A stretch of DNA of 64,000 nt from Powellomyces hirtus (Eukaryota; Chytridiomycota; Chytridiomycetes; Spizellomycetales; Powellomycetaceae), in contig JAHLKG010000026.1 of NCBI GenBank assembly GCA_025526995.1, positions 340,001-404,000 of the forward strand. The letters are read 5' to 3'. Below the pieces are notes generated by a model. It was not told the origin of the DNA. It saw only the letters and a program-made list of their open reading frames with translations, and did no database searches. The stretch's first letter is position 1; each line of letters begins with the position of its first letter. Below, piece after piece: positions 36,752-64,000 of this stretch. Position numbers and translations under genes: made by a program.

Positions 36752-39600
36752 ATGACACCCATCGAAACCCCTCAAAACGATACCGAAGCTCTGAAGGAGC
36801 GCATCTCCATGCTTGGTATGTTGTTAATTGTTTGCTTGTTATCGTTTGTAGTGACTCTGTTCTGCGTGTGTATGTGCGCATGTGAGCTTCCTCAAGTGTG
36901 ACGGAGACGAACGACGCGTTCCGGACGTGGCTTGACTGAGAAGGATCGGACAAACGCCAAAGAACGTTCTACGTGACGTCATTCGCACGTTTACGAAAGT
37001 CTGCAAAACACACACATTCTTTCAACGCTGATTTCGTCGTGTGGGGACTGGGTCGCGCAGGTTTGGGATTGACGGAAGGCGGAAGGGAGAGTAACAACAA
37101 AGTGGGCGAAAGCAATGGACAAAAAGTGGAAAACTGCCAGTTGTGCATGGCGAGAGGTTCAACAACGGTGGAGCCGAAATAGCGTCCTAATGCTATGAAA
37201 TAGAATCTAACCGACATGGCTCCTTTGTCTGTCACATTTGACAGCTTCGAAAGATCGCACTTTGATCTACTATCTCCAACAAAATGCCAAAATCGACGGT
37301 GAAAAGATCAGCCACCGATTCCTGAACGATATGGCCGGCAAAAAGTCGACCACGTTCACTTTCAAGCAGCTCGATGACACTTCAGCCTCTCTCGCATACA
37401 GAATGCGCAACAGCTGGAAACTCAAGAAAGGCGACACTGTCCTCCTTCTTTACCCGCCCGGACTGCACTTCTTGGTTGCATTTATGGCCTGCTTCCGAGC
37501 CGGCGTGATCGGGGTTCCAGCGTATCCCCCCGTTCTTAGCAATCTGAAGGCTGATCTCCCAAAACTGCGGGCGATTCTGGATGACTGTGGCGCAGCCAAA
37601 GCGCTGACGAGCCGGGACTATTACATGGCCAAAACCGCTTTTGGCATCAAAAACATGCTGTCGGCATATAAATTTCCCAGCGGTTCGTACAACTGTTCAT
37701 GAATGAGAAGTTCGGTTTTGAATATGCTCATATTGCGTACCAATTTTCTATGAATGCTTTTATCAGACCTCGAACTGCTCGTGACCGATACTGTCCCCGC
37801 CAGTGGCCCAAAATTGACAGACGAAACGGTCATTTTGGATGATTTGGCCTTCCTTCAGTACACTTCGGGATCAACGGTATCGTAACTTAGAATTCTATTT
37901 CTGGATGTTCAGACAAGAAAAGCGTAAACTCACTGTATTTTCTCGCCAAGGGTACTCCCAAAGGGAATATGATTACTCATGGAAATATGGTTCACAATCT
38001 CGCTCTGGCCAGCTACGATGCTGGAATTTCTAGGAAGTCTGTGCAAGTGTCATGGCTTCCCCAGTACCACGACATGGGTCTCTGCTCCGGATTCCTTGCA
38101 CCAGTCCTGCGTGGCCATGCGTCTGTGGTCATGTCGCCCATTGACTTCATCAAAAACCCAATGATGTGGATGCAGGCCATGTCCGATTACAAGGGAACCC
38201 TTTCGCATGCTCCCAACTTTGGATACGAACTCGCTGCTCGCAAACACGATCCCTCGAAACTCTCCGCACCTCTTGACCTTTCGAACGTCGAGTTTTTAAT
38301 GAACGCAGCTGAGCCCGTCCTGTTCAGTACAATTGAGAAGTTTTACGCAACATTTGAGAAATATGGCCTCAAGCGCAATGTCATCAATCCCGCATATGGT
38401 CTTGCCGAGAACACTGTATTCGTGGTCAGCTCGCACGACGGCAAACTGCTCAGTCACAACGACCGTGTCTGCTGCGGTGAGCCCCACTTGGATGTTGATA
38501 TCCGAATCGTTGACTCGGATACTCTCAAAGAGCTCCCCGACGGTCAAGAAGGCGAGATCTGGATTAACAGCGCCAGCAAAGCCCGTGGATACTACCGCCG
38601 CACTGACAACGAAGAGAACTTTGAAGCCAAAGTTTCTGATGCTGTTGGAGACGTCGCCAACCACAAATATCTCCGTACCGGAGATCTGGGCTTCAAAATG
38701 GATCGGGGTCTCTACTACAGCGGACGCATTAAGGATCTCATCATAATTCGCGGCCGGAACTACATCCCGAGCGACATTGAAGCCATTGTCAACGTCCAGC
38801 CTGGCATCAGACCTGGGTGCGTTGCGGCCTTTAGCGTACCAGGTGACCACGTCGAGCGCGTCGTGGTGGTTGCAGAACTGCGTGCAACCAAGAAGAAGAT
38901 GGACAAACTCGCTTTAGTCATGAAGATTGTCCAAGCTGTCAAGTCCGACGTCGGTATATCCGTGAGCTCGGTCGTCCTCATCGCGGAGCGCACGATTAGT
39001 AAGACGACGAGTGGCAAGATCCAGCGTCGCAAAAACAAAGAGCGATACCTCAAGAAGGAACACCGCGTAGTTTATGAAATCAACGGCCTTGCCGGTGATT
39101 CCGAGTTTGAAGACGACGGGAGCGAGAGCTCCGACAGCGATTACAGCGAGAACGGTGATAACGGCTCTAGCGGTGGTTCTCAAACAGATGCTGCCGGCCC
39201 CAATTCAGGCAATAGTTCCCAAGTGGGACCTGGCTCGCCAGACGCCACGTCCGACGAGAGAAGTGACGACGAATCTCCTGTTGACATTTCTCCGGACTTC
39301 AAGAAATTGAGCCGCAGCGCGCTAATAGAAATGTCGCTCCCGGAACGTATCAATGCGTTGACTGTTCTCACGGCACAAGGAGTGAAGAAGAATCTCGGAT
39401 ACGTCCCAAAACCAAATCAGAACCTCATCCATAGCGGAATTACCTCTTTACAAGCCGTGCAGCTAGTTAATCACTTGGAAACTGTTTTGGAAATGCCGCT
39501 GGCTGCGACTCTTTTGTTCGAATGCTCCACTGTTGCAGCGGTCGCAAACCACATTGCAGAGCTTGTTGAAACAGCCACCACTTATGCGAGGTCTGCCGTT
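36752..39600 (+). other. NRPS loading module: FAAL and carrier
   Basis: FAAL marks: LLYPPGLHFLVAFMACFRAG, VPAYPP, YTSGST/GTPKGN (split by the intron 37877-37950), SWLPQYHDMGL, NAAEPV, YGLAE, RTGDLGF, GRIKDLIIIRGRNYIPSDIE and TSGKIQRRK. The YHDMGL and IIIRGRN signatures separate FAALs from amino-acid A domains and acyl-CoA ligases. A 60-residue acidic Ser-rich linker (39105-39290) leads to a carrier with SGITSLQAVQL near 39435; Thr replaces the usual Asp before the active Ser. Introns 36816-37244, 37683-37766 and 37877-37950. It should load an acyl-adenylate made from a free fatty acid; chain length cannot be read from sequence. Confidence 0.9.
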
Positions 39601-42600
39601 ACGTTCCCCGACGAGTCAGCGTTTGTCGAAAAAGCTGGTCGCGTTTTGGAGTACGCTGCTTCGCCAAGTCAGCAACGCATGTGGGTTGCTCAGCTCGTGG
39701 CCAAGGACACAAGTTACCACGTGCCACAGCTGCTGCACATCAAAGGCCGATTCGACCCTTCCGCGTGGAACAAGGCGTACTCGATCCTCGTTCACCAACA
39801 CCCAATCCTGCGAACGGTCTTCGATGCTGGTCATGACGGTCGCGTAATCGATCTTAAACAGCGAGCCCTTCCCACCGAGAAGGCCACGGTCAAGTTCCCC
39901 ACTGTTGCTGTCGCTGATGTTGCCAGCGCAATCAAACTAGCTCATGCGGACAACGCGGAAGTCCATTTTGACCTAACCAACGGACCCCTTGTGCGCGGAA
40001 CGTGTTACAAGATAGACAACACGGACGAATGGGTGGTCTATGTCAACTACCATCACATTGTTGTCGACGAGTGGTCATTGGGAATTGCAGCGAAACAGAT
40101 CTCGACGTTGTATTATCTCATAGTCCAAGAGGGCAACAATGACGAATCGATGTTGCGAGAAGTCTTTCCTGCTCCCAAGTTCAATTTCTTCGACTTTACA
40201 GTTGCCCAGCAGTCCGCTCTACAAGAAGAACAGGTCGCATCCCAGCTTGCCTTCTGGTCTTCGCATCTCGACGGGGTGGCTGCGCTGCAACTGCCACAAT
40301 CCAAGCGGCCCGAAAGCGCCTCGAACAGTCGTGTCGCAGGAACCTGTGCTATCAACCTCTCAAATAACCTCTTCACATCTTTCAAGCAGCTTTGTTTCAA
40401 CAACAGCGCGACCGCTTTCCAGGGTTTCCTGGCCGCCTTCAATCTCCTCATATCGATTTATGCTGGAAGTGAAACGGACTTTGCAGTCGGTATTCCGTAT
40501 TCCAACCGCTCCAGTTATGCAACCGAAGACATTTTTGGGTTCTTCCTGAACACATTGAGCGTGCGTGCGAGCGTAGATGAGACGGCTCAGATGCAAGGAT
40601 TCAGCGCATACCTTGCAAAAGTTCGGGAGAACGTACTCTCTGCCTTCAAGCACGCTGACGTTCCATTGGAGACTGTTATATCGCACCTGGCGAAGGCAGC
40701 TGGCGCGGATCGTTTCGAACCAGGTGTACACCCGCTATTCCAGGTCATGTTTGTGTACAACGACGCAACGCCGTACCGAACCGCCAAAAACATGGTGTCG
40801 GGTTGCGAGACTAAAGTTCTGTTCTTGGAGCCCGCGCATGCCAAGTTCGATCTTACTATGTTTGTGCGAGAAGAGGCTGCCAAGGACGCTGGAGCTGAAG
40901 TTCTCATCGAGTATGATGCCAGTCGGTATGATCCCAAACTCATTCGCAACATGGCCAACCACTTCGTCGACATCATTGAAAACGTGGCCGCGTCCCCTAC
41001 TGCGCCACTCTGCAAGATGTCGGTTACAAGACCTCGCGAGCTCGTGAAATTGGAATCGTACCTTCCGGGATGCGACATTCCAGAAGACTTGTTAACTCTG
41101 CCCGCAATGATCAAGAAGCAGACCCTTGCGACACCTGATGCTATAGCTTTGGAAGATGAGGACGGTCGTGTTGTCAGCTACGCCGAGCTTTCTGATCTTA
41201 CTGATCGTGTTGCAAGCTACCTGCTGAGTCTAGGTCTCGCTCCCGAGTCGCTGGTTGCGTTGTGTGTGGATAAATCAATCGAAATGATTGTTTGCATGCT
41301 GGGTGTTGTCAAGGCCGGATGTGCGTACGTGCCACTCGACGGAAACAACCCGGTGGATCGCAACCGTGGGATCCTTACCCAGGCAGACTCTAGGGTCGTG
41401 TTCACGCACCCACAATACTGCACCCAATTTGAAGGCCACGGTGTTCCTGAATGCCTCACGTCTGTCTTCGTGGTTGAGAAGAATTGCTTTAAGCAGCTTC
41501 CACAATGCGAGTCATCAGAGCAGATCACTATATCGCACAACCAGACGGCATACTGCCTCTTTACCAGCGGGACTACCGGAACTGTGAGACATTCCCATTT
41601 TTTCTACTTCTCATTTCTCCTCCTGAATGCTGACACAACTTTCCTTCGCTGTTTGCAGCCTAAAGGTGTCCAGGTTTCCCACAAGGCCATCTGCCTGTCA
41701 GTGGTAGAACACGGTCACATGTACGAGATTACGCCGCAGACACGATACATGCAATTTGCAAATTACACATTCGACGTCTCCGTGATGGACATTTTCTGCA
41801 CCCTGGCTCATGGAGCTACGATCCTGATTGCTGCAAAAGCTTCACTTCTGCAAGACCTTGGTGCCGTCATGCGGAAGATGCGCGCCACGTTCACAGCTCT
41901 GACACCCACCGTTCTGTCCGCTCTTCTCACACCAGAGGACGTTCCAACTTTGGTCGGTCTTGGCATTTCGGGCGAGGCAATGACGCAGCAGGTTGTAGAT
42001 ACCTGGGCGGATAAGGTCAGGTTGATCAACGCGTAAGTTATCGAGATACGTCGTACATCATCAACAATCAGCTCACCCAAAGTCTTCCCCACTCTTTTTG
42101 CGTGTTTGCATCTCAGCTTTGGCCCGACCGAGGCAGCGTAAGTGTTTGATTGCTTCTGTTCAACGCGCATGGCCCGGCCGCCCTGACAGTTTTTCGCAGG
42201 GTTAACGTTACGATGCAGCTCATGAAACCTGACACAGTCCCTACTATAATAGGAAAGCCGCTTGCAAATGTCTCAGTTTACATTTTAAACCGTTTCATGC
42301 AGCCGGTGCCTGAACTTGTGACCGGGGAACTCTACCTTGGTGGGCCCCAGTTGGCAAAGGGGTACTTAAACCGCCCTGATCTCACCGACGCGGCTTTCGT
42401 GAATCATCCAATCTCTGGTGAACGCCTCTATTCTACGGGCGATATCTGTTGCTTCACTCTGGATGGACTTATTGACTACCGGGGGAGAGTCGATGGACAG
42501 TTCAAGCTTCGTGGCCTCAGATTGGAGAGAGATGAAATCGAATCGGTTCTGCTTTCGGCTCATCAAACCATCGACAAGTGTGTGGTCATAATGTCCCGCA

Positions 42601-45600
42601 AGCACACTGGTCACGACATGCTGATTGGAGCCGTGTCTTTTTCCGATCTCTCCGCGAGCCAAAATATGGAGCTGCTATCTGAAGAATCGCTTGCGATCGC
42701 CAAACAGAGAATAAGTGAGGCTGCAAAAGTCCTGGCCAAAAAACTGCCTTCATACATGCAGTTGTCGGCTTGGATTCCCATGGAATACATCCCACTCAGC
42801 TCGTCAGGGAAGACTGATCGGACACGCGTAAAACAATTCATTGAATCGCTCCCTAACATCGACATTGGTGTGAACTTGGACGGCTCCGCCGCCGAAGAAG
42901 AACTGGAAGATCTCGCGTCGTTCAACATCGTTCGTCAAGTCATCGGAGACGTCTTGAAAGTAGACGGCCATGCTCTCTCAGCCTCTTCCACATTCCTTGG
43001 GCTGGGTGGTGATTCCATTACTGCTATTCAGGTTGCCGCTCAATGTCGACTCAAGGGACTGGACGTGCAAGTTGAAGACATATTCCAGACCAGTAGTCTT
43101 GGTGAGCTGGCATTGCGGGCTGCCGTGGGCGAAAAGGCAGTTGCTCTCTCCCTCAGGCAAGAAACCGACGGCGAAGATTTTGATTTGACGCCTATCCAAG
43201 CACGTTTCTTCCATCTCTATCCTACCGGTGCAAATCAGTACAACCAGTCGATAGTGCTGCGAGTGGCAGAGGCAGTGACAAGTTCGGCTTTGGAGGCGGC
43301 GCTGCAACAACTGGTGAATCGTCATGCAATGTTGCGGTGCCGTTTCATTCAGTCCGATAATGGCTGGGTTCAGCAGATCACACCTGTCGACCGCGTGCCA
43401 GAGTTCAAGCTGCCGTACCATGAAGTATCCTCCGCTACGGAGGCAAACATGATTATTGAGCAATCCCAGACTTCTCTTGATTTGCGAAGTGGACGTGTCA
43501 TTACTGCGGCTCTGATTCAAAACGTCTCCTCCGGAAGGCATAGGATCATTTTCATCGCGGTTCATCATCTCGTTGTCGATTTAGTGTCTTGGCGCATTAT
43601 CTTGGACGAGCTCGAGGTTCTTTTACGAGGCGGCGAACTAAGCCCCGCATCGTCAAGTTTTCGAACATGGTCTGAGGCGCTTGCGAGTAAGGCAAATGGG
43701 CTGACTGACATTACATTCAAGCCTGCGGAGGAAGTTTCACGGATCCCCAACGACTTTGAGTCGGCTCCAACGAAAGTGACATACGGCGGACGGAGGGTAT
43801 ATGATTTCACTCTAGATGCATCAGTGACCGAGAGCATATTCCGCCCTGAAAACAAGTACCGAACTCAGCCTGTCGAATTGCTACTTGCTGCTCTGACCTT
43901 GGCATCTCGAGAGACATTCGGTGTGCTGAAATTGCGCTTTGATATGGAGGGTCATGGTCGCGATGCCGTAAACGACGCTACCGTTGACGTTTCCCGAACA
44001 GTGGGATGGTTCACCAACCTTTATCCCGTGACATTCTCCAGTGAGGGAGAAATCAAAAGAGTAATTCAACAGACGAAGGAAGAGCTGCGCCATGCGACAA
44101 AAACTGCCACAGCGTTTGGACTGTCCAAGTTCATCCGGAAAGACCCATCGGTGCAAAACATTCCCGTCGCAAGCGTTTTGTTCAACTTTATGGGTCGTTT
44201 CCAACAGTTGGAGAACAAGGATCTGCTTCTAAAACTCGATGGCGATATGCTTGGTCGCGATTTGAAGCAACAGGCCGATGATCTGGAATGCCCCTATCTC
44301 TTTGAAATTAACGCGGTGCGAAATGCTGGCGAGATGCACATCTCCATCGCCTATAGTGCAGAGCATCATTTGTTTCAGACTGTGAAGAAGCTCGCCGACA
44401 ACTGGACGCACGCCATCCACCGCATCATCGATGAGACAGCATCAGCCACCGACTATTCTTGCTTCACACCGGCAGATTTTTCGTCATTGGGTGCGCTGAA
44501 GCAGGACTCTCTCGACAAACTTATGGAACAAATCAAGATTGTTTGCCATATGCGTCCTAGAGACGTACTTGACATTCAAAATGCTACCATTGAGCAGCAA
44601 GGCCTGGTTCTTGGTCACCTGAGCAACCCAGCTCTGTACTTGCTGCAATTTGTCATTGACTTGAGGGGGCCACTGCATGTCGCGCGATTTCAGCAAGCCT
44701 GGGATAAGGTGATCCACGATAACCCGATCCTCAAGTCCCGGTTCGTTATGGGGAAGGAGGATTCTTCTCTGTTCCAAGTGCTTCCTCGCGACAGCAACAT
44801 CAGCTGGTTTTTAAGCACCAGCTCAGATGATGCTAAGGCTGCCGTTTCAGCGTACTGCGAGTCCGATAGGCTGATTGAATTCTCGCTTGGTCGGCCCATG
44901 ATGCGCCTAGCTCTTTTCACCGTCACCGAGAATCAATTTCAGCTTGTGTGGACCATTCACCACGCTCTTACCGATGGATGGTCGTCGCCTATGATTATGG
45001 GAGACGTTATGGCGGCCTATTATAACGAGGCCGTTCCACGAAGAGTACAATTTGCGGATGTCGTTCAGCACAAACAGCGCCAAAAGATGGATGTTAAATT
45101 TGAATTTTGGAAGACGCATCTGCAGCAAGTATCGCAATCGAAGATTAGTGAGTGCGTCGCCAAACCTACGACAGCTACAAACGATAGCCGTATTCCCGGG
45201 ACACACTTGCGCTCTTTGAAAGTTTCCGTTGCTGACCTCAAGCGTGCGGCCGCCGAAGCGAACTCGACTATTTCCAACTGCTTACGAGCCGCCTGGGCTA
45301 TGGTGCTGTATAGATACACCCGGTCCACTTCTATCACTTTTGGAGCCGTGGTTTCTGGAAGAAATCTTTCCCTCGCGGGGATCGAAACCGTCATCGGTCC
45401 GTGCATCAATACTATCCCTGTGTGCCTCGACCTAGATGCATCGATGACACCACGCCATCTTTTGGACCTGGTCAACGAGGACCAAGTAAAGACCATGGAG
45501 CATGTGACCCTTCCTTTGGCTCAAATCCTCAAAGCCGCCGGATTGACCGGGAATAGTCAGTTGTTCGACTCTCTGCTGATTTACGAAAACTATCCTTGGG

Positions 45601-48600
45601 TAGAGGCAAGCGCGACGCCTCGGGACTTGGCACTGAACGTGGAACGCCATTCGGAGGCTACCGAGTACCCGATGGTGCTGTTTGTTGATAATGACGATTC
45701 AACTGTCAAAGTCGAGATCCAATATGACACGTCCATCTTCACTGACAATGTGATTGTCATGCTCGCTAAACATTTCAACAACGCATTGAGCACTATCGCT
45801 AGCCAGATGCCCGTGATGATTGGTGTCTTTCCGATGCTCGATGCGGAGGAACGCATTGAAAGCGTTCACGCAAGACAGTTCGATCTTCAGAGCTTCACAA
45901 TGGCCCATCACCTAATTGAGGAACAAGCGGCTCGTGTTCCGAATGCCGTTGCCCTCGAATTCGACGGTGGCGCCACGATGACGTATCACAAACTCAATTC
46001 CAAGTCTAACCAACTGGCAAGATATCTAATCTCTCAAGGCGTTCAGAAAGAGGATCTGGTGGCTATCTGCATTGACCGCTCGTTTCAAATGGTGATTGCC
46101 ATCCTTGCAATCGTTAAGGCTGGCGCCGCGTATGTTCCATGCGATTCTTCTGTCCCCATTGCCCGCAATGAGGTTGTCATTCGTGAAGCGCAAGCGGAAA
46201 TACTTTTAACAACGGCAGAGCATGCCCCGATCTATGGCAATAGCAGTGAATTGAACATTATCATACTGGATGACGAGCGGTTTCCCTGGGAAGCCCAGGA
46301 CGAAGGTAATCTTGATATTTGCGGATTAAATATGACTAACGCTGCATACGTTCTTTTCAGCTCGGGAACTACTGGAACGCCAAAGTAAGCCACAACCCCA
46401 AAGCTTGCCGTCATATACCACTGATATCCAAAGCCTTACTTTTGCCTACCCCCACTAGGGTGAATGCGAAGCACTACCCGCGTAGTTGTCGCTATGAGTT
46501 TCGCTCATTCTGATACACATATAGGGCATTGTGATAGAGCATGGAGCTCTGGCAGTATCAATTCAAGAACACGCTCGTATGGAACACTTCTGTGAAGGAT
46601 ATCGCGTGCTGCAATTCTCTAGCTACACATTTGATTACTCTGGTACGCTCTACAGAGAACCTGAAGCCATAATCACAGCCATAGCCAGGATCGCACTGAC
46701 TCTTACCATCTTCTTGTTACTTCTCGTAGTTATGGATATATTTGGAACGTTGTCTTTCGGAGGAATTCTTTGTATGGCCACCAAGGATCGGATGCTAGGT
46801 CATCTGGAAGAGGTGGCTTCGTCGATGGGAGTCAACTTTGTTTGCACCACTCCTACGGTCATCTCTATGATCAACCCGGAGGCGGTTCCAACGCTTACTA
46901 CGGTTTCAATCGGTGGCGAGTGCATGACTCAAGGCGTGATCGACACATGGGCTGAAAGGGTTGAGCTGATCAACGTATACGGTGAATACCTTCTTTCTAT
47001 TTCAAGCAAATCTCGCGCATACTGTCAATTAGCGATTAATTTGATTTTCGGAAATGAAGGGCCAACGGAGTTTACGGTCAACGCAATAATGGGAAGAATG
47101 ACAAAAGATTCCTCGAAGCAGAATATCGGCAAAGTGCTCGAGCACACACGGGCGTACATTTTGGATGAAAATCTGCAACAACTTCCACTATGCGTTACGG
47201 GAGACCTATGGCTTGAGGGACCGCAACAATCTCGAGGATACTTGGGCCGACAAGATCTTACGGACGCTGCGTTTCGATCAGATTGGAATGGTCTCCGCTT
47301 GTACCGCTCCGGGGATCTAGCTCAACGGCTTCCGGACGGCACGTTTCTGTGCCTGGGACGTATTGATGACCAGGTAGGTGGATCTGCATTTATACCAGAA
47401 AGCAGATAACAAAGAAGGTATAACAATCCCGCTCAAGGTCAAGATCAATGGCCAGCGTATTGAGATGAAAGACGTGGAATCGAATATATTTACTTGCGAG
47501 GGCATTACCGGATGCGCCGTGGCGCTCTGGCACAATTCATGCGGAGAGGCCCAACTCGCCGCGTTTGTCAAATGTCGGGAATTGCGAGCGACGGAGAAGG
47601 CTGAGCCTGTGCGCATACTTCAAGACGCTGCAACCGAGAAGGCCATCGCGGATTTGACCGCACATCTGCGCAAGGTCTTACCACAATACATGGTGCCAGC
47701 CATTATCTGTGGCGTCAATCGCGTGCCTATGTCTAGTGCTGGCAAGGCAGACCGCAAGACTTTGCTTGCCCTACTTGCGAATGGACCCATCCACATTCGA
47801 GCAAAGGCAAAGGAAGTCATCTTGCCGCGCAATGCTGAAGAGGAAGTATTGCTCAAAATTCTCGAAACCCAGCTGCGCTTGTCCGCGCCGCTAAGCGTAG
47901 ATGAAGACTTCTTTATTGCCGGACTTAACTCACTTGCAGCTATTAAGCTAGTTTCCTCAATCTCTGATCTCCTGGGTGTTGATGTACCGGTCGGTCAGAT
48001 TTTCATGAACCCGACAGTCACTGATCTGGCTACTGTTATCCGATCGATGCAAGAGGAAACTAACTCTCTCGAGAGCCCACGCATGGCTAAGCAGTCTATC
48101 GTTACTGATGGCCCGGAAACTATCCGCGTCTTGGCTTCGGACTCACAGAAGGCGATGTGGATGCTGCAAAACATGCAGCAGAATACCAGCTATCACATGT
48201 TTAGCATGATGAAGCATCCGGGAAATCTGCATGCTATCAAGCTTAGTCAAGCACTTGACTCCCTCAGTCGTACTCATAGCATCCTCAGAACCACATTCGA
48301 ACTCGACGAAGACACGGGCGATGTTTATCAGCTGATTCATCCCACTCTTCCCGTTCAATTTACTTCGATTGAGCTCAGCTCTGAGATCGACAACGAGGAA
48401 GAAGAAGCTCGCACCTTCGCATCGAAAGATAACCTCACTATGTATAACTTGGCGGCTGGGCCACTTGCGCGATTCATTCTGTTCCAAGGCGCCAAATCCT
48501 CCTTCTTATACTTCAATATGCATCACATCATCTCAGATGAGTCAAGCATGGCGTTGACGATTGAAGAACTCGGTCGACTATACGCGGACGACTCTGATTC

Positions 48601-54600: not shown

Positions 54601-57600
54601 TCGGTTTGAGACCCGTGCTCTTCATGGCACCTCCACTCCCTCGGAAGGCGAGCCGACGCCTCCGGGAGAGTTCGAAATGTCTGTCTTATCGATAGCTCGT
54701 GAGGTGTTGCGCAACAACAATCTTGACTTCGATGATAACCTGTTCACGGCTGGAATGAACTCGCTTACCACCATCCGCTTTATTGCTCGCCTACAAGAAG
54801 CGACAGCGTTGGAAATGAAGATCTCGGATGTGTTCACCAACCCAACAATTCACGCTCTTACAAAGATTATGCGAGCCTCTAATCAATCCAGTGCGTCGAC
54901 CCCGTTTCCGAAAACCTCGTTAATCTCGCGGCTGCGTGCCGGTGAACCTATCGCTGTGCGAGCATCTCAGGCCCAGCAGAGAATGTTTGTTCTTCAGGGC
55001 CTGCAAAAGGACAGCACCTACCATGTGCCGTTCTTTTTGAAGTTGAAAGCCTCAGTGGATGTTCAGCGTCTTCGCAACACTTTGGAAATTATGCAGCAAA
55101 GGCACCCTATTCTCCGGTCGACTTTCGAATACAATTTGGAAGAAGATGCAGTGGTACTCACTGCAAAACAAGAGATCCACATTGATGTCGGGTCTGTTGA
55201 CCTTTCCTTCTTTGCGGCCAATGCTTCCGATGTTGCATTGCAGCTATGTGCTCAAGATAACGAGAAGCTTTTTGACTTAACAACTGGGCCTCTGCTGCGC
55301 TCTATTGTGTTCCAACTTGGTAGCGGTTTCGTCGGATTGTACATCAACCTTCACCACATTATATCCGACGAACAAACTCTGCAAATTTTCTTATCGGAAG
55401 TCTCGAAGATCTACGCTGGAGGTGGCGATATGTTGGAGCTTGCCTTGCCTGAGTTCTGCTTTGCAGACTATGCATTGTGGGAGAAGCGAAGGTGGGTTAA
55501 TGCAGCCTCGGACGTTGATGCCGACCTTACATTTTGGAAGAACTACCTTGCGGATGTGCCAAAGCTAGACCTTGCCCACATCAATAATGCCCTTCATGCC
55601 CGCACCGCCGGTTCACACGCCATCACGATCAAGGGAGACATTTACGATGCGTTTGCTTCTCTCTGTGAGAATGCAAATTCCACCGTTTTTACGGGTCTCT
55701 TGGCTGCCTTCTATGTCCTCTTGCACCGATACAGTACACAGTCGGATTTCGCGGTTGGTATTCCAGTAACAAACCGTCAACATTCGGAGACTCTTGACAT
55801 GCTCGGACTCTTTGTCAATACGATCGTTTTGAGAGCTAAAGTGGATCCATCGATCGACTTCATGGAGTTCCTCAAGGAGCTTAAGCCGAATATGCTCGAG
55901 GTCTTTGAACACGCCCAGCTTCCGTACGACTCAGTGGTGGAACACTTGGGATCATCTACAACCCAATTGTTCAATATCATGTTCGTCGCTCAGGATATTG
56001 GCGGGAACATGCCTGCTACACTCTTAGGCGCCCCATTCGAACAATTGGCAGTTCCGGTGAAGCGTGCCAAATTTGATATAACGTTCTATGTCCAGACGGG
56101 CGCGTCAGGCGCTCACCACATTCAAGTCGAATACGACGCGTCGATGTTCGAAGCCGCTTTCATTACGCAGTTCTCAGACTCTTTTGTTTCTATCCTGGAT
56201 GGTGTAGTTCTCATGCCGTATAGCGCGATAGGCACACTGAAACTAGAGAAAGTCCACACCGAGGATAACAAACCGTTGGATGAGAACCAGGAATCATCAC
56301 GAGGTTCCAATCTCGGACCTGGCTATGCAGCTCCATCCGTTGAACTCAAGCCCGCTTCCACCCCTCGGTCCACGTTACCGGACGGCTCAGTTGAGCAAGG
56401 TGTACACGACATATTGCAAAACGTGCTTCGACGCACTAGAGGGTTTTCAATGGAAGAAGACATGTTTGAGGCGGGAGTGAACTCTTTAACATCAATGCGT
56501 TTGGTGGCGCTATTGAACGCTAAGTTCAACGTTAGCCTGTCCATTGCGGACGTATTTGAGGCGCGCACAGTTAGGAATTTGGCCAACAACATCAAAGGTG
56601 CATCGGCATCCCACGTCAATCGCGACCCCTTCCCAACGCTGAGCCATTCTTCGGAAATTGTGCGTGTGCGAGGGTCGTATGCTCAAGAACAGATGTGGAC
56701 GCTTCAGGAATCAAGCAACGATAACTCATATCACGTGCCCATTCTCGTCATTTTGAGGGGTTACGTAGATGTGACCGCTTTGTCCAAGGCGATTCATCAC
56801 GTAGCGACAAACACAGGACTCTTCCGCACCACTTTTGCCATGGAGAAAGGATATCTGATGCAGCTTGTGCATCCGGCTCTGGAATTCGGCATTGGCGCTT
56901 CTCGAATTCAGGGATTGGATGATTCGAGCTTGATCGACTCGATCGTTTCCGAGGCTCGAAAGGACAATGAAAAACCGTTTGATCTGGGCACTCAACCATG
57001 GCGGGCATTACTGACCGAGACAAATCGCGATATCTGCGGCCTCTATATCAATATGCACCACATTATCAGCGACGAGTTTACGGTTCAGTGGTTAATGAAG
57101 GGAGTCTTCCGAGTATACCATGCTCTCGCAAGCGGAACTGAAGCGAAAGTTGACTTATCAAGGCACGAATTTGTCGATTTCGCAGTGTGGCAGCGGGAAT
57201 CCCTGGAAGCAAACAATGGAGGCCGGATGCAGGAACTCATGGCTTTTTGGACTCACCTCAATGGCACACCCGCTCTTCAACTTCCCAAGCGAGCGTCCGT
57301 CGAGGCTCGCGGCGTTGGAACCGTTACAGCTATCTTACCTTTGGGCGAGATTCAAGCGTTCCAACGTATCACCGACGATTGGAGCGCTACAATGTTCACC
57401 GGGATGGTTACCATCTTCCGAATCCTTCTGTCCCGCTATGCCTCTCAGTCCGATTTTGCTATTGGTATCCCGGTCGCACAACGTGACCGGTCGGAAACCT
57501 TGGCCATGCCTGGTCCTCTGATCAATACAGTTGCCTTGCGATGCCCAGTCAAAGCCGAGTCTTCGTTTGTGACGAATCTTGAAAACAACAGAAGAAACAT

Positions 57601-60600
57601 CATAGCGGCACTCTCGCATGCGGCAGCTCCATTCGAAAAAGTAGTGCAAGCGAATGCGACAAACAGATCGGATCCTTCTGTTAAGCCTATTTACCAAGTC
57701 ATGTTCATTCAAGCTTCAGATGAGACGATCGAGGGCGTAGACAGATTCCAGGGTGCCTCAGTGGAACACCTGCAGGTTGCAGGATCTGCCCCTAAGTTTG
57801 ATCTTACCTTCCACTACAGGATGTCGGCTACAAGAGACACAGACGTTACAATTGAATACGACACTGCCTGCTTCAGCAAAGAATTCATTCAAAGAATGGG
57901 AGATCATTTCCGACAACTGCTTCTGAGTATCTGCGCGAAACCGGACACTCCTGTGAATGAGCTTACTTTCATGAATGAGACAGAAATACAGCGGATCCTT
58001 CTTACTTCCGATCGTCGGCATGAGATTCGTAAGCAAAATGGCGATATCGCAATTGGCAAGATGATTGAATCACAAGTGATAAAAACCCCGAAAGCGATTG
58101 CGCTTGAGGATGAATTCGGTCGCACAATGACCTACTCGGAACTCAATGAAGAGGCAAATCGGGTAGCAGCTTATCTCGGGAAAAGAGGAGCTCGGAGGGA
58201 CACCATTGTAGGCTTCTGCCTTCAGAAGCGAATCGAGGCTATTGTAGTTATTGTCGGTATCCTGAAAGCGGGAGCCGCTTACCTTCCCATTGGGCCTGAA
58301 AACCCTGTCGCAAGAAATCAGGAAATCCTGGAGCAAGCAAGGTGTCTGGTGCTCTTTACATCTCAGGAATATAACGCCAACTTCGGAACAACAAATGTTT
58401 TGAGAGACATTGTGAACGTGGAAGACCGCCCTTGGAGCAATGAGAGCGGACAGAATGCTGGCCTTCATCACCTAAGCGGGGATGATGTGGCATACGTTTT
58501 GTTCACTTCTGGTAAATCAAGAGCGTGACTCATCAGTACGTACGCGGAACTAATACCGCCTTCCCACTTCCTTCTTTTCCACGTGATTCAGGATCCACAG
58601 GCAAGGTGAGCCAACTATTCCGAATCAGTTTTGCAATATGCGGTCAAATTTCTTATATGAACATTTCGTGTAGCCCAAAGGAGTTCCAATTCGGAACAGC
58701 AGTATTTGCAGTAGTGTAGTGCAGCACGCCCGCGTGTACGGCATCACCGTTGCAACTCGTTACCTCCAATTTGCAAATTACACTTTCGATGTCTCAGGTA
58801 CTGAGCTTGCTAGCGGGAAGATTGAGGTGATATAGGAGGACCGCGGCTAAGTTTTACCCTCACACACAGTGATGGACATTTTTGTCTCATTATGCTACGG
58901 CGCAACGCTGTGTATTGCAAGCAAGGATCGCATGTTGGACAATATGCCTCAAGTGATGCAGAAGATGCGCGTGAACTTCACAGCTTTGACCCCATCGGTG
59001 CTCTCTGCTTTGTTGAAGCCTGAGGATGTCCCAACATTGCGTGGCCTCGGAATATCCGGCGAGGCAATGACTCAAAATATTGTTGATACATGGGCTGACA
59101 AAGTCACTCTGCATAACGCGTAAGTCTTTGCAGCGCATTAAAAATTTTGCTTAGGCCAGTTTGCTCACCTCTGTTCTGCAGATATGGACCAACTGAGGCT
59201 TCGGTATATTCTGGGCTGCTCGTGTTTCCATAAGACCAGATTTTCTAACCCATCCTTTGCAGGTCAACGTGACGATTCAGACGATGACACCAAATACACC
59301 TGCGTCTATTATTGGCTCACCGCTGCCGGGAACTGCTGTCTACGTTCTCGACGAAAACTTACAACCTGTCCCGGTCGGTATTCCCGGTCAACTGTTTCTG
59401 GCGGGAGTTCAGCTGTTCACAGGATACTTGAACCAAGACGATCTCACAGCTGAAGCATTGCTACCGGATCCATTCGTGAAGGGAGAACGAATGTATAGCA
59501 CCGGAGATCAGGTCGTGTTTACCGAAGACCTTCGCCTTTCGTACATCTCTCGTTTGGGATTTCAAGTAAAGGTGCAGGGAGGTCTCCGTGTTGAGCTCGG
59601 GGAAATCGATGCGGCTCTTTTAAGTCATGTCACTGCGGCTTGCACACTGTTGCTTCAGGACAAGTTGGTGGCATTTGTCTGTCCCGAAAACCAAGCCGAC
59701 GCCACGGTGACCTTGCAAGTGCTGCGAGACGAAACAGTCGTCGAGAATTTGTGTAAGATTCGCCAACAGCTGCGAGACCAGCTTCCGCAATACATGATCC
59801 CTGCACAGTTGGTATCGGTGAACCGCTTGCCGATGAGTTCGTCTGGGAAAGTTGATCGAAACGCACTTTGCACACTTTCTTTGGATGGATTGGTAGAAAC
59901 GGGGACCATTGTCGAACCGACAACTGACAAAGAGCATTCCATCACCCGCATTTTATGCGGCATCACTGGCTTGCAAAGCATTAGTGTCAGTACAGAGTTC
60001 TTCGCCCTTGGATTGAATTCGCTTCAACTCGTCAAGCTCGCGACGACCTTGAGAACCGAATTGGGATGCAAGATCTCCACTTCCACCGTTTTCAAACATT
60101 CCAGCATCAAGGACTTAGCCGCTCATCTCGATCAGCAGACGAATTTGGAAGACAATCTTCGCATTACGGTGGCGGCTGCTTGGAATAAACCGGCTCCGGA
60201 TGGCGTGGTTTACGCTCCTTCTTCATATGCACAGGAGCGCATGTGGGTGTTGCACGACATGCTTCGCGACAACACCTACTCAGTCCCGCTTTTTACGATT
60301 CTTAAAGACTTTGCTGCTGACGTTATCGCTAGCGCTGTCGACCAGGTATTACAACGCAATGCTGTCTTCAGAACTACTTTCAAAAAAGACTTGAGCAGCG
60401 GATCGATCTTGCAAGCAATTCACCCGACTCTGCAGAGGAAGACAGTTCGCATTGACCTCGCTCAGTCCGAGAATCCCAAGGACATTGCTGAAGCATTCGC
60501 ACGGGAAGACTTCGACAAACCGTTCAACTTAGATAACGGATCGCTCGTGAGGTCGTTTGTATGGGACCTGGGCAATGGAACTGTCGCAATGTACTTGAAC

Positions 60601-63600
60601 ATCCACCACATTTTAATCGATGAGGGTGGCTTGAAACTGCTATTGAAGGAGATACTCGATAACTGTCAAGGCACAGTAATTGCGTCTCCTCCGCCAGTGC
60701 AATATGCCGACTATGCTATCTGGCAACGAGCACTATTGGAAAACATCGGGGAGAGCCAGCTGCTTTATTGGAAAGCTCAACTTGATGGAGTAGCGACGCT
60801 CGCTTTGCCGACGCGGCAAGACAACCATGGGGCGACAAGAGCTTTAGGGTTTGTCGAAATGGAGGTCGACAGTCAAGCCTTCCACGCCCAATGCACTTCA
60901 GCGGGTTGCTCCATTTTCATGGGTATGCTTGCGCTTCTACATGTCTTGCTTGCAGGGTTCAGTGGACATTCCGATTTTGCGATCGGTGTTCCTGTGTCGA
61001 ACCAAACGCACCAGGATACGGAGGAAGTGATTGGCCTGTTTTTGAATACCATCGCGATTCGGATGAACGTGGACTATCAACTGGATTTCCAGACCTGGCT
61101 GCGTACTCAGGTCAAGGATGTCGTCACCGATGCGTTATCAAATTTGGAGATCCCCTATGATCGGGTTGCGCGGGCTGTCTCGAGACACGGACCTTTGTTC
61201 CGCGCGATGTTCATCATGAAGTCGAACGCCGAGAACAAGATGTTCGATCAGTGGTCCATTGAGGAAAACATAGAACTTCACCCGCGAGCAGTCAAATGCG
61301 ACTTGACGTTTATCCTCTCGCTGTCATCAAACAAGGAAGTTCTTACGGTTGAGTACGATGCATCTCTTTTCCATGCTGATTACGTTCAGAAGCTTTGCGA
61401 CTGTCTCATGCGCCTAATGACCCAAACCGTCAACGAAGTCAAACCGATGGCTGACCTTACCTGGTTGACAAAAGAGGAGCAAAAGCTTATGCTGGTCGAT
61501 TGGAACAGTGCCGCTGCGTTGACGCCGGATATATGCGCCCATGAACTCATAGAACTGCAGGTCGAACGAACCCCATCGGCTATCGCTCTGGTTCATTTTG
61601 ATGGCGGCTCGATGACATACAAGGAGTTAAACTATTCCGCAAACAAGCTGGCGAGACATCTGATGAAAGCGGGTGTTGAGAAAAACCATCCCGTGGCTCT
61701 TTGTTTGGACCGCACATTTGACATGATTATCTGCATTTTAGCCGTTGTCAAAGCTGGTGGAGCGTACTTGCCCTTGGACCCAATGAACCCCGTCCAGCGT
61801 AACATCGCGGTACTAGAAGAAGCGCAAGTCAAATTTGTTCTGTCGACTAAAGGTCACGAGAGAACATTCCAGGGTATCCAGGCAGATGTCCTGGTACTCG
61901 TTGTTGACTCTGATGATGAGCGTTGGGCGTCCGAATCCGGGGACAACGTGCGAATAAAAGACTTGGAGCCCGATGACCCGTATGGGATTTTCTATACGTC
62001 GGGTTCAACAGGGAAACCAAAGGGGGTGGAACTGCCTCACCGAGCATTGACTACCTCGACGCTGCGACATATCGAATTCGAAAAGCTCACTGCAGAAGAT
62101 CGCGTTCTTCAACTATCGACCTACACCTTCGATTACAGTGTGATGGATATCTTCTCCACTTTGTCAAGTGGAGGGACCTTGTGCCTGGCTTCGAAGGAGG
62201 ACATTATGTCGCAGATGAATCATGTGTTCACAAAGATGGCAATCACTTTCGTGATGACGACTCCAAGCGTTATTGGACTCCTAAAACCCAGTCCGGAACT
62301 CGCTTTGAGAACCCTCGCTATTGGAGGAGAAGGCATGACACAGTCAGTCGTGGACACTTGGGCTCACCGACTGTGTCTTTTGAACGTGAGTCGCAGAACA
62401 TCAGACCCCAGCTCTGAAACCATTTAACACCAAGATTTGCTCTCTTGGGCAAGCAACTAACTAACTTTCTCCTCTTCTCATAGGTTTACGGCCCGACTGA
62501 AGCCTGCGTTAATGTATCCATCCAGCATCTCAAGCCACATAACGACATCAGAGCGATTGGCAGACCTTTACCAAACAACACTGCCCGTATCTTGAACAAA
62601 GAACTTCAACCTGTTCCTTGCGGAGTTGTTGGAGAGCTATATCTCGGAGGTCTTCAGTTGGCGAGGGGGTATTACAAGCGCGATGATCTAACGCGAAGCG
62701 CCTTCATTATTCTAAGCTCGGGAGAGAGAGCCTACAGGACCGGAGATCTGGCTGTTTATCAGCCGGACGGAACCATTCTCTGCCTGGGGCGCGCGGATTC
62801 GCAAGTGAAGATTCGTGGGTGAGTGTCCTCGTTTTTGATGCCTAAAACGACGTGAACTCTGATCGCTGCCTTCTGTTTTTCCTGCAGCCTCAGAGTCGAG
62901 CTCGGTGAAATCGAACACGCGATCGTGGAATGCACCGGTTCATTATGCGCGGTGATCCTTCAGGGCTCGGGAACAGACGAGCCAAAGCTAATCGCTTTTA
63001 TTGCTAAGGCCTGTGAGCGCATTCCGACTGATGAGCTAGTCCTCATCAGTACAACAAAGAGCGCAAAGGACCAAGAAAATCTTCGGCGATCGATGAAAGA
63101 AAGACTACCCGCCTACATGGTGCCAAACAAGTTCGTCTACATGAAGGCACTCCCAGCCACGGGTTCTGGAAAAATCGATCGAAAAGCTCTCTCACAAATT
63201 GACGTTATGTACGAAGCAACAGCGGATGCCAGGGGCAAGACGCTTCCCGAGACAGAGGATGAGCGGGATGTGTATGCCATGATTGCTGACCTTGTAGAAC
63301 ACTCCGCTTTCGGTGTTGATGAGGACATATTCTCCATCGGGATGCACTCGATTCTGGCTATCAGGTTGACTGCCACAATGGAAAAACAATTTGAGGTTCA
63401 AATGTCGGTTGCTGACATCTTTCAGGCCGGGACCGTGCGTGGGCTAGTTGAATCGATGAAGAGAAAGGGCAACGGCTGTCAGGTACTATTCCCCGAGGAA
63501 TCAGTTGTAATAACGGGAGCCAGAAAGCAACTGTTCCCGGCGTCATCAGCTCAACAGAAGATGTGGATGCTTCAGCAGATCAAAAACGACAGCACGTATC

Positions 63601-64000
63601 ACATTCCTTTGCTGGTGCATGTCGAATCTTCATTGGACACCACTCTGCTTCAGCGGTCCCTAGATACCCTCCTCCAACGGCATTCAACCCTCAGAACCAC
63701 TTTCTACCTGGAAGTCAAAAACAACCAGTTAATGCAAGTTCTTCATTCCGAACTGGCTGTCGATTTAATGGACAAAACCTTCCGTACGCCAGAGTCGCGT
63801 GATCTCTGGACAAAGTCAAACAACGAGGAGGTCTTCGATCTGAGCCACGGTCCGTTGCTCCGAGTCGCTTTACTGCGTGTACCGGAACACGAGGACATTC
63901 TGTACATCAACATCCACCATATCGTCGCTGATGAGTGGAGCATCAATATTTTGCTGACAGAGTTGGCGGAGGCTTACCGTGCGGGCACTGCTATTGCCAA
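36752..64000 (+). CDS. FAAL-primed multimodular nonribosomal lipopeptide synthetase, 3' end beyond window
   Basis: First exon 36752-36815 encodes MTPIETPQND and joins in phase to 37245. About 23 introns give roughly 8,400 visible residues. Domain order: FAAL-T; C-A1-T-E; C-A2-T; C-A3-T; C-A4-T; C-T without A; C-A5-T; C-A6-T; C (cut by the window). The FAAL should activate a fatty acid as acyl-AMP and load it on the first carrier; the C domain then acylates residue 1. One E domain makes residue 1 a D-amino acid. Introns fall only in the leader and in FAAL/A domains. Each carrier keeps the phosphopantetheine Ser (ITSLQA, GGDSITA, GLNSLAA, GLNSLSS, GMNSLTT, GVNSLTS, GLNSLQL, GMHSILA). The donor at 46385 seems to lack one G (see findings). 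The FAAL start suggests bacterial ancestry; introns and the TATA box show it is fungal now. Confidence 0.92.
39640..44470 (+). other. NRPS module 1: C-A1-T-E
   Basis: C domain from 39650 (SPSQQRMWVAQLV) with YHHIVVDEWS near 40050. A1 from 41100 to 42830: YAELSDLTD, YVPLDG, LFTSGTTGT/PKG (intron 41584-41658), NYTFDVSVMDIF, GISGEAMT, INA/FGPTEAA/VNVT with two more introns (about 42035 and 42138), and SSSGKTDR. Carrier LGGDSITAIQ near 43005; the DSI form is usual before an E domain. E domain 43180-44460: LTPIQARFF, VHHLVVDLVSWRIIL, EGHGRD, DVSRTVGWFTNLYPV and FNFMGRF. A1 pocket read against GrsA: DVMAGSAVN. The module adds a residue and epimerises it. Confidence 0.88.
44500..48080 (+). other. 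NRPS module 2: C-A2-T
   Basis: The C domain follows an E domain and is the only one with classical IHHALTDGWSSPM, fitting a D-accepting (DCL-like) type. A2 about 45900-47760: YHKLNSKSN, LFSSGTTGTPK, YTFDYS/VMDIF (intron from 46640), GGECMT, INVY/GPTEFTVN (intron about 46982-47060), RSGDLA, DDQ/VKINGQ (intron from 47375), SSAGKADRK. Pocket DYMCSGVVN. The first A2 intron, after PK at 46384, needs a one-base shift to keep frame, because CAAAGTAAGC appears to lack one G. Carrier IAGLNSLAAIKLV near 47925. Confidence 0.8.
48110..51460 (+). other. NRPS module 3: C-A3-T
   Basis: C domain: SDSQKAMWMLQNM, MHHIISDESS near 48520. A3 about 49480-51190: YGELNRTANQL, YYVPLDAS, SSSGTSSG/KPKN (intron 49950-50008; the P-loop is less canonical), YTFDVSVLDIF, GGEPLS, FNV/YGPSECTPN (intron 50388-50447), GGQ/VGRGYL (intron 50620-50697), YRTGD, STSGKVNQ. 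Pocket DVLSAGVPN, unlike the other A domains. In the A10 motif the usual DR after GK is replaced by NQ, though the catalytic Lys is kept. Carrier ARGLNSLSSIRV near 51310. Confidence 0.85.
51500..54890 (+). other. NRPS module 4: C-A4-T
   Basis: C domain: ASYAQERMWFLQKL, IHHIASDEQT near 51895. A4 about 52890-54600: YGELNARANRLARYL, YVPLDAQ, LHTSGSTGVPK/GVMVTHG (intron 53383-53441), YTFDVSVMDIF, GISGEAMT, QNA/FGPTECAVNVT (intron about 53812-53886), IGG/PQLARGYL (intron from about 54052), YRTGDLARF, TSAGKADRK. Pocket DVMTGSAVN, one change from A1 and A5. Carrier TAGMNSLTTIRF near 54750. Confidence 0.87.
54930..56610 (+). other. NRPS module 5: C-T without an A domain
   Basis: C domain: ASQAQQRMFVLQGL, LHHIISDEQT near 55350, and the usual closing VEYDASMFEA. 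It is followed by only about 45 residues of Pro/Ser-rich linker, then a carrier with EAGVNSLTSMRLV near 56470. No A-domain motif lies between, and the frame is open from 54071 to 58528, so no hidden exon or large intron holds one. Confidence 0.88.
56640..60160 (+). other. NRPS module 6: C-A5-T
   Basis: C domain: GSYAQEQMWTLQ, MHHIISDEFT near 57055. A5 about 58050-59900: YSELNEEANRVAAYL, YLPIGP, LFTSG/GSTGK/PKGV across introns 58512-58591 and 58606-58673 with a 14-nt exon between, YTFDVS/VMDIF (intron about 58799-58868), GISGEAMT, HNA/YGPTEAS/VNVT (introns about 59121-59181 and 59201-59261), YSTGDQV, SSSGKVDRN. Pocket DVMAGSAVN, identical to A1. This A domain has the most introns (five). Carrier LGLNSLQLVKL near 60010. 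Confidence 0.87.
60180..63480 (+). other. NRPS module 7: C-A6-T
   Basis: C domain: SSYAQERMWVLHDM, IHHILIDEGG near 60602. A6 about 61530-63190: YKELNYSANKLARHL, YLPLDPMN, FYTSGSTGKPKGVEL with no intron at the P-loop, YTFDYSVMDIF, GGEGMT, LLN/VYGPTEACVNVS (intron about 62385-62484), YRTGDLAVY, KIRG/LRVELGEIE (intron about 62820-62887), GSGKIDRK. Pocket DYMMAGVVN, similar to A2. Carrier IGMHSILAIRL near 63340. Confidence 0.88.
63520..64000 (+). other. NRPS module 8: C domain, cut by the window edge
   Basis: SSAQQKMWMLQQIKNDSTYH begins near 63550 and IHHIVADEWSINI lies near 63910. The frame is open to the last base, so at least one more condensation step follows. Confidence 0.85.

Follow-up and report, generated by a model that had tools for sequence, protein, structure and literature searches.

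A predicted fatty-acid-primed nonribosomal peptide synthetase encoded by a single gene in the chytrid Powellomyces hirtus

The stretch of DNA analyzed here, called the window throughout, comprises 64,000 nucleotides of the chytrid Powellomyces hirtus (Chytridiomycota, Spizellomycetales, Powellomycetaceae; positions 340001–404000 of contig C26, JAHLKG010000026.1; genome of 29.26 Mb in 60 contigs), and its right-hand part is occupied by a nonribosomal peptide synthetase (NRPS) gene that opens with a putative fatty-acyl-AMP ligase (FAAL). Contig C26 was read to its end, and the synthetase was found to be one gene running from an ATG at 36752 to a stop at extended coordinate 75744, 11.7 kb beyond the window end. 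Splicing was predicted with a simple Viterbi model and then adjusted manually, using conserved motifs as a guide to the intron sites; because of this manner of correction, a stop-free intron elsewhere may have been missed. The spliced product is 12,129 amino acids long and is encoded by 33 exons (one of a single base) separated by 32 introns, all 32 of which are GT-AG; 31 introns measure 55–98 bases and one 429 bases. The window itself holds 24 introns, or 23 if the pair 46385–46458 and 46460–46524 is counted as one, in agreement with the figure of about 23 given in an earlier interpretation of the letters alone (the sequence-only reading). A TATAAA element, read as a TATA box from its letters, lies ~45 bases upstream of the ATG at 36752. 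Two alternative gene models were tried and rejected: a frameshift near 59215, the site of which is a further intron (59204–59262), and a model running past the stop with extra introns after 75724. The features of the synthetase are listed below; C, A, T, E and TE denote condensation, adenylation, carrier, epimerization and thioesterase domains, the ends of A domains are approximate, and the A-domain codes were read by motif position.

36752–39070, plus strand: FAAL domain, residues 1–578 (exons 36752–36815, 37245–37682, 37767–37876 and the first part of 37951–41583)
39071–39408, plus strand: acidic Ser/Asp-rich linker from FAAL to carrier (sequence)
39409–39555, plus strand: T0 carrier, PP-binding, Ser in GITSL (Pfam)
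39649–41043, plus strand: C1, HHIVVDE (Pfam, motifs)
41098–42822, plus strand: A1, code DVMLGSAVNK (motifs)
42930–43112, plus strand: T1 carrier, GGDS (Pfam, motifs)
43182–44447, plus strand: E, HHLVVDLVSW (Condensation-like match; TIGR01720)
44625–45815, plus strand: C2, following E, HHALTDG (Pfam, motifs)
45896–47762, plus strand: A2, code DYMTSGVVNK, containing the odd junction of the next line (motifs)
46385–46524, plus strand: odd A2 junction, read as a pair of introns flanking a one-base exon at 46459; in the public model 46385–46458 alone is spliced out, and a stop follows 17 residues on
47909, plus strand: T2 motif, ahead of C3 (motif)
48131–49408, plus strand: C3, HHIISDE (Pfam, motifs)
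49469–51166, plus strand: A3, code DVLLAGVPNK (motifs)
51256–51435, plus strand: T3 carrier (Pfam)
51514–52839, plus strand: C4, HHIASDE (Pfam)
52891–54603, plus strand: A4 domain, code DVMLGSAVNK (motifs)
54740, plus strand: T4 motif (motif)
54962–56245, plus strand: C5 of the module without A, HHIISDE (Pfam, motifs)
56402–56587, plus strand: T5 carrier directly behind C5, no A between (Pfam, motifs)
56675–57997, plus strand: C6, HHIISDE (Pfam)
58041–59881, plus strand: A5 domain, code DVMLGSAVNK (motifs)
59941–60129, plus strand: T6 carrier (Pfam)
60217–61491, plus strand: C7, HHILIDE (Pfam)
61531–63206, plus strand: A6 domain, code DYMTAGVVNK (motifs)
63324, plus strand: T7 motif (motif)
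63531–64000, plus strand: first part of C8, truncated at the window boundary (Pfam, motifs)
Beyond the window, plus strand: C8-A7-T8, C9-A8-T9, C10-A9-T10, TE (GHSAG at extended 73918), ankyrin repeats, tail, stop at extended 75744 (Pfam, motifs)

The order of domains along the protein is FAAL-T0, C1-A1-T1-E, C2-A2-T2, C3-A3-T3, C4-A4-T4, C5-T5, C6-A5-T6, C7-A6-T7, C8-A7-T8, C9-A8-T9, C10-A9-T10, TE, ankyrin and tail, which displays the repeating C-A-T arrangement of a modular NRPS with one module lacking an A domain. Pfam matches and motif positions together gave ten C, nine A (six in the window), eleven T (T0–T10) and one E; the eleven PF00668 matches on C26 were divided by motif position into the ten C and the E, and the A4 core motif YTFD is present in nine A domains. 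The E domain of module 1 scored 79.2 bits with TIGR01720 against a cut-off of 74.2, and C2, the next C domain after it, is the sole one with the canonical HHxxxDG. Behind the last carrier stands a thioesterase (PF00975, 70.9 bits, with GHSAG) assigned as the release domain. Past it, at extended 74530–75744, ankyrin repeats and a tail were observed, the tail bearing a GKIDSEAI motif that resembles an A-domain end. The sequence-only reading had described a starter ligase, a carrier and at least seven elongation modules, and had suggested HMMER-type domain calls on the spliced protein; Pfam and NCBIfam models returned FAAL, T0, C1, E and TE, and the gene proved larger than described, with six A domains and one C-T module already inside the window.

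The central observation is that FAAL and NRPS lie in a single reading frame. Exon 37951–41583 (3,633 bases) is stop-free: it begins just past TSGST of the FAAL, takes in the rest of that domain, the linker, T0 and C1, and reaches into A1; because it spans the FAAL core, T0 and C1 into A1, the two parts are one gene and not two. This genomic reading frame upholds the one-gene structure claimed at the outset, against which separate FAAL and NRPS genes had been named as the outcome to look for. The low-complexity linker at 39071–39408 is the kind of segment that could lie between two adjacent genes, but linker, T0 and C1 share the uninterrupted exon, and an annotated protein of another chytrid, Geranomyces michiganensis HDU86_006690 (P0253), has the same FAAL-T start. 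We therefore regard two adjacent genes as scarcely credible.

Several lines of evidence support the assignment of the starter domain as a FAAL, whose activity is putative. The domain bears the signatures WLPQYHDMGL and IIIRGRN, it scored 378.6, 362.2 and 344.3 bits with three NCBIfam models of fatty-acid-AMP ligases, and the Pfam matches to AMP-binding (218.4 bits), PP-binding (41.7 bits, T0) and the DIP2-like C-terminal domain (34.1 bits) each exceeded the gathering score. The distinction from acyl-CoA ligases was made by profile scores, since the trees described below held neither CoA ligases nor A domains. Among 103 NCBIfam families, the top eight were FAALs or FAAL-bearing synthases; the ninth, PRK07768, was the best named CoA ligase at 280 bits, and the next CoA ligase scored 162. 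By these scores, the starter is a FAAL and not an acyl-CoA ligase, as the sequence-only reading had it. The 15 best PDB chains for the domain are ones that we take to be FAALs. In EcFAAL, residues W224, M231 and F279 block the CoA pocket, the prolines P226 and P107 line an alternative pantetheine pocket and T252–R258 forms a FAAL-specific helix (PMC8460268). The W, M and F correspond to W239, M246 and F294 of the synthetase at an offset of 15 with their spacing (7 and 55) unchanged, an offset intermediate between those of 11 and 17 that bound the phmmer match to 3pbk, and not read off a printed alignment with that chain. P241 matches P226 at the same offset, and the stretch SPIDFIKNP, set against the EcFAAL helix, aligns with the same stretch in nine other FAALs (sequence alignment only).

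FAAL homologs were drawn from the best 120 of 7,819 and the best 120 of 2,817 matches (~8,000 best candidates scored, length bounded); because the lists cover these, other fungal FAAL-NRPSs may exist. The locus scan behind the FAAL rows found at least 80 loci, of which 80 were kept. Eight rows gave no FAAL by the extraction rule (P0332, P0044, P0110, P0086, two locus pieces and two DIP2 pieces); of these, the DIP2 pieces were restored in their entirety for a 321-row FastTree. An IQ-TREE analysis (LG+C20) used 78 of those 321 rows, picked by hand and without DIP2; 22 were called eukaryotic, including P0003 and P0043 from metagenome sources, and 20 were NRPS-linked, 13 of these bearing a bacterial name. 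The synthetase FAAL paired with that of Geranomyces P0253 in both trees (support 98 in FastTree, 100/97 in IQ-TREE). In the IQ-TREE analysis, this chytrid pair was next joined by two eukprot proteins (97/93) and fell in a 32-row set (99/94) with 20 rows called eukaryotic and 10 others; nine of the 10 form one clade, whose four members among the matches listed carry reductase-type domains. Among the matches listed, the named FAALs are mostly of oomycetes and other stramenopiles. An oomycete source of the window, which these names would suggest, was rejected: the genome carries 15 Zn2Cys6 (Zn_clus) sites, its EFL gene shares 97% identity with that of Thoreauomyces humboldtii, and a public P. hirtus protein, described below, is identical to the synthetase where the two were compared. 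This FAAL thus groups with eukaryotic FAALs and not with the FAALs of bacterial NRPSs, although support for the eukaryotic grouping itself was weak (87/64 and 88/67; FastTree 10 to 51).

The genome's other FAAL-like gene, on contig C12, is DIP2-like and contains two FAAL-like stretches. In the 321-row FastTree, its pieces lie 3.0 and 4.3 from their nearest rows, as compared with 1.5 between the synthetase and Geranomyces FAALs, and its large exon reached at most 59.7 bits with the FAAL models versus 378.6 for the synthetase FAAL. A FAAL phylogeny had been proposed as a check, with placement among DIP2 proteins as the adverse outcome; the domain falls outside DIP2, and its bacterial NRPS counterparts are not its neighbors. 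As a separate observation, one collected protein (P0001, 1281 amino acids) contains two near-identical tandem FAAL domains.

The NRPS modules, as judged from one A and one C domain, look bacterial in style. Among PDB entries, A3 scored 219.5 bits with gramicidin synthetase 1, 157 with SidN and 144.7 with psoA, which we take to be fungal; C3 scored 154.6 with Txo1 and 146.6 with tyrocidine synthetase 3, as against 63.5 for psoA and 60.7 for mokA. The description of the gene as a fungal-style, intron-rich NRPS is amended in this respect, the modules examined being bacterial in style. These scores are what one would expect had the whole FAAL-NRPS come intact from a lipopeptide-making bacterium and gained its introns later; FAAL-NRPS proteins are, moreover, common in bacteria among the matches listed, and NRPSs of bacterial affinity are described in other early-diverging fungi (PMC7466969; PMC8106346). 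The position of the FAAL argues otherwise. A branch with 99/96 support separates 43 rows, 20 of them NRPS-linked FAALs of bacteria and the remaining 23 likewise bacterial, and constraining the chytrid pair to join them lowered the log-likelihood by 44 and was rejected (p-AU 0.002, approximately unbiased test), with the caveats that the tested group was chosen after the first FastTree and that the tree program flagged the synthetase FAAL row for odd amino-acid composition. We consider intact bacterial acquisition unlikely.

For eight of the ten C domains, the best match was another C domain of the same gene (30.5–35% identity), whereas C2 was nearest to a C domain of another NRPS in the same genome and C8 to one from the collected, mostly bacterial, proteins. 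Identity among the nine A domains is 35–48%; the codes of A1, A4 and A5 are the same, and those of A2 and A6 are nearly identical. The code positions follow those of GrsA, with the final K assumed, and carry no substrate claim. Further NRPS-type loci were noted on contigs C1, C4, C13 and C20, and the genome has 44 condensation matches, this gene included.

The introns are distributed very unevenly. Twenty-nine of the 32 lie in the nine A domains, which make up 4,509 of the 12,129 residues (binomial p 4.5e-10), and the remaining three lie in the FAAL; the spliced gene model places no intron in C, E, T, TE or tail. Within the A domains, the introns sit at core motifs A3, A4, A5, A6/A7 and A8, often differing in phase, and each of the nine A domains has one at the A5 motif. 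An independent count of breaks in hidden Markov model (HMM) matches gave 26 A and 0 C breaks for this gene, and 32 A versus 5 C breaks for four other NRPS stretches of the genome (C20, C13, C4), the latter being match fragments and not gene models.

Taken together, the single frame, the domain order, the key motifs and the tree position make it probable, in our judgment, that this gene encodes a single-chain, fatty-acid-primed NRPS in which a eukaryotic-type FAAL is joined to a bacterial-style NRPS and which would produce an N-acyl nonapeptide. The N-terminal FAAL would convert a free fatty acid to the acyl-adenylate and load the acyl moiety in cis onto T0, the carrier next to it. C1 would then join the acyl group to the amino acid on T1, which the E domain would invert, and the later modules would add eight more residues, the nine A domains corresponding to about nine residues in total. 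The C-T pair without an A domain may pass the chain on or be loaded from elsewhere, and the thioesterase would free a linear or cyclic N-acyl nonapeptide. The forecast of a peptide of six or more residues is compatible with this count, the N-acyl peptide itself being a prediction.

If the starter domain activated some other acid (a polyketide chain or aryl acid, for example), the product would not be a lipopeptide. The FAAL-like PKAL-1 of Caenorhabditis elegans, which lacks the insertion motif, is proposed to load an advanced polyketide (PMC8363725), and Geranomyces P0253 combines a FAAL with polyketide synthase (PKS) domains. However, no PKS match was present in the scanned stretches of the window, and the families closest to the starter are fatty-acid-AMP ligases; a non-fatty starter appears improbable to us.

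A number of findings weigh against a fatty-acid-primed assembly line of this length, and they are brought together here. The NCBIfam FAAL scores are far under the curated whole-protein cut-offs. The C5-T5 module stands in the middle of the assembly line without an A domain. HHxxxD is found in 10/10 C domains, but the next residue is E in nine and G in one, as compared with E in 1/331 and G in 184/331 of the C-like stretches from 121 other proteins, mostly, not only, bacterial. No match to PKS, fatty-acid synthase or further NRPS was found among the scanned flanking stretches. The FAAL departs from the usual form between YGLAE and GEIW, a span that we take to hold the FAAL-specific insertion: it is 47 residues long, where the median over 310 rows is 70 (the span was unmeasurable in 11 of the 321), so that an insertion of the usual length is lacking. 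Spans of at most 54 residues occur in 31 of the 310 rows, with the synthetase and Geranomyces P0253 FAALs among them. PKAL-1, from which the insertion is absent, makes acyl-AMP and no acyl-CoA and loads a carrier (PMC8363725); the short span is for that reason compatible with FAAL function, and it is on its descent and its other residues, the insertion being set aside, that the domain is counted as a FAAL.

The last such finding concerns the integrity of the gene. The public P. hirtus protein DFJ77DRAFT_478472 (P0241) is 100% identical over 93% of residues 1–760, but its model is 2,909 residues long, ends inside A2 and is without the last ~9,200 residues. Its start is residue 51 of the present reading, and what precedes that start matches the N-terminal end of PDB FAALs from residue 26 on. 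The frame crosses 46385–46524 solely through the one-base exon at 46459, or else the assembly is in error by a base. A gene in decay, broken in A2 at this junction so that the truncated protein alone is made, would account both for that need and for the stop of P0241 17 residues past TGTPK. Two observations make decay very unlikely: the exon after the junction resumes the A2 motif with no residue gained or lost (TGTPK, then GIVIEH), and the ~9,200 codons beyond stay open over 24 introns, with eight C, seven A, nine carriers and the TE motif. With a public model of 2,909 residues, about one quarter of the enzyme is visible to searches of annotated proteins.

One neighboring gene may relate to the product:

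31079–35015, minus strand: divergent ABCB/P-glycoprotein-type transporter, upstream of the synthetase (PDB search)

The larger exon of this ATP-binding cassette (ABC) transporter gave ABCB4 and P-glycoprotein as its nearest PDB entries (545 bits), and the transporter is a candidate for exporting the product. An ABC protein of the MRP type is present at 17229–19046, and the scanned downstream stretches held ankyrin and AAA-type matches only.

With respect to origin, we give an even chance to a scenario in which Powellomycetaceae chytrids invented cis fatty-acid priming independently. A eukaryotic FAAL-carrier unit, of a type that is free-standing in oomycetes and algae, would have been fused to the front of two assembly lines, a bacterial-style NRPS in Powellomyces and a PKS hybrid in Geranomyces, and the fused NRPS would have grown by module duplication and gained introns only in its adenylation domains. 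If this holds, a eukaryotic FAAL fused to an NRPS would mean that cis priming with lipid has more than one origin. The literature describes zoosporic fungi, with chytrids among them, as having few secondary metabolites (PMC7466969); a self-priming synthetase of 12,129 residues in a chytrid gives the search for products a definite target. In the open-license literature searched, as judged from titles and abstract openings, we found no fungal FAAL-NRPS fusion reported; FAAL-containing NRPS-like clusters are reported in Glomeromycotina (PMC8070225).

Several known systems share parts of this architecture. In fungi, the FAAL-like group is that of the DIP2/CPS1-type proteins, which occur in animals as well and are likewise members of the ANL superfamily (PMC8460268). 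They consist of a DMAP1-binding domain and two tandem FAAL-like domains, whereas the synthetase has one FAAL at its very start, followed by T and NRPS modules. PKAL-1 of C. elegans is a eukaryotic FAAL-like protein that loads an NRPS carrier, although it is a separate protein of an animal hybrid pathway (PMC8363725). The NRPSs of the fungal pleosporacin (PleA/PleB) and pneumocandin (GloA/GloD) systems begin with a T0 that is loaded by an acyl-AMP ligase, as proposed here, and an MDR1-like ABC transporter is encoded in the ple cluster too (PMC12177691). There the ligase is separate, which bears out the sequence-only reading that typical fungal lipopeptide NRPSs acquire their acyl chain by other routes, and a CT domain releases pleosporacin; in Powellomyces the FAAL is part of the NRPS chain and a thioesterase stands after the last carrier, which sets the synthetase apart from the pleosporacin kind (PMC12177691). 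Among bacteria, vioprolide-type NRPSs have an N-terminal FAAL, and FAAL sequences are reported from fungi, algae, plants and stramenopiles too (PMC11837247). The bacterial FAAL-started NRPSs of Pyxidicoccus (P0247) and Bacillus thuringiensis (P0266) similarly carry FAAL, carrier and C-A-T modules in one protein, but their FAALs fall in another part of the tree, and the HHxxxDE that prevails here was seen in 1/331 C-like stretches of the collected, mostly bacterial, proteins. The stramenopile proteins of Aphanomyces (P0004), Phytophthora (P0006) and Lagenidium (P0010) combine FAAL and carrier and represent the nearest well-sampled FAAL group, yet they are 738–786 amino acids long, are without NRPS modules and have the usual insertion span. 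Geranomyces P0253, whose FAAL is the sister of the synthetase FAAL in the tree, is a PKS hybrid of another chytrid that likewise starts with a FAAL and has a thioesterase. It shares the FAAL-T start at 39% identity over 93% of residues 1–760, as well as the span of 47, but continues with one weak C domain (34.7 bits), KS, AT, KR and TE instead of a long NRPS.

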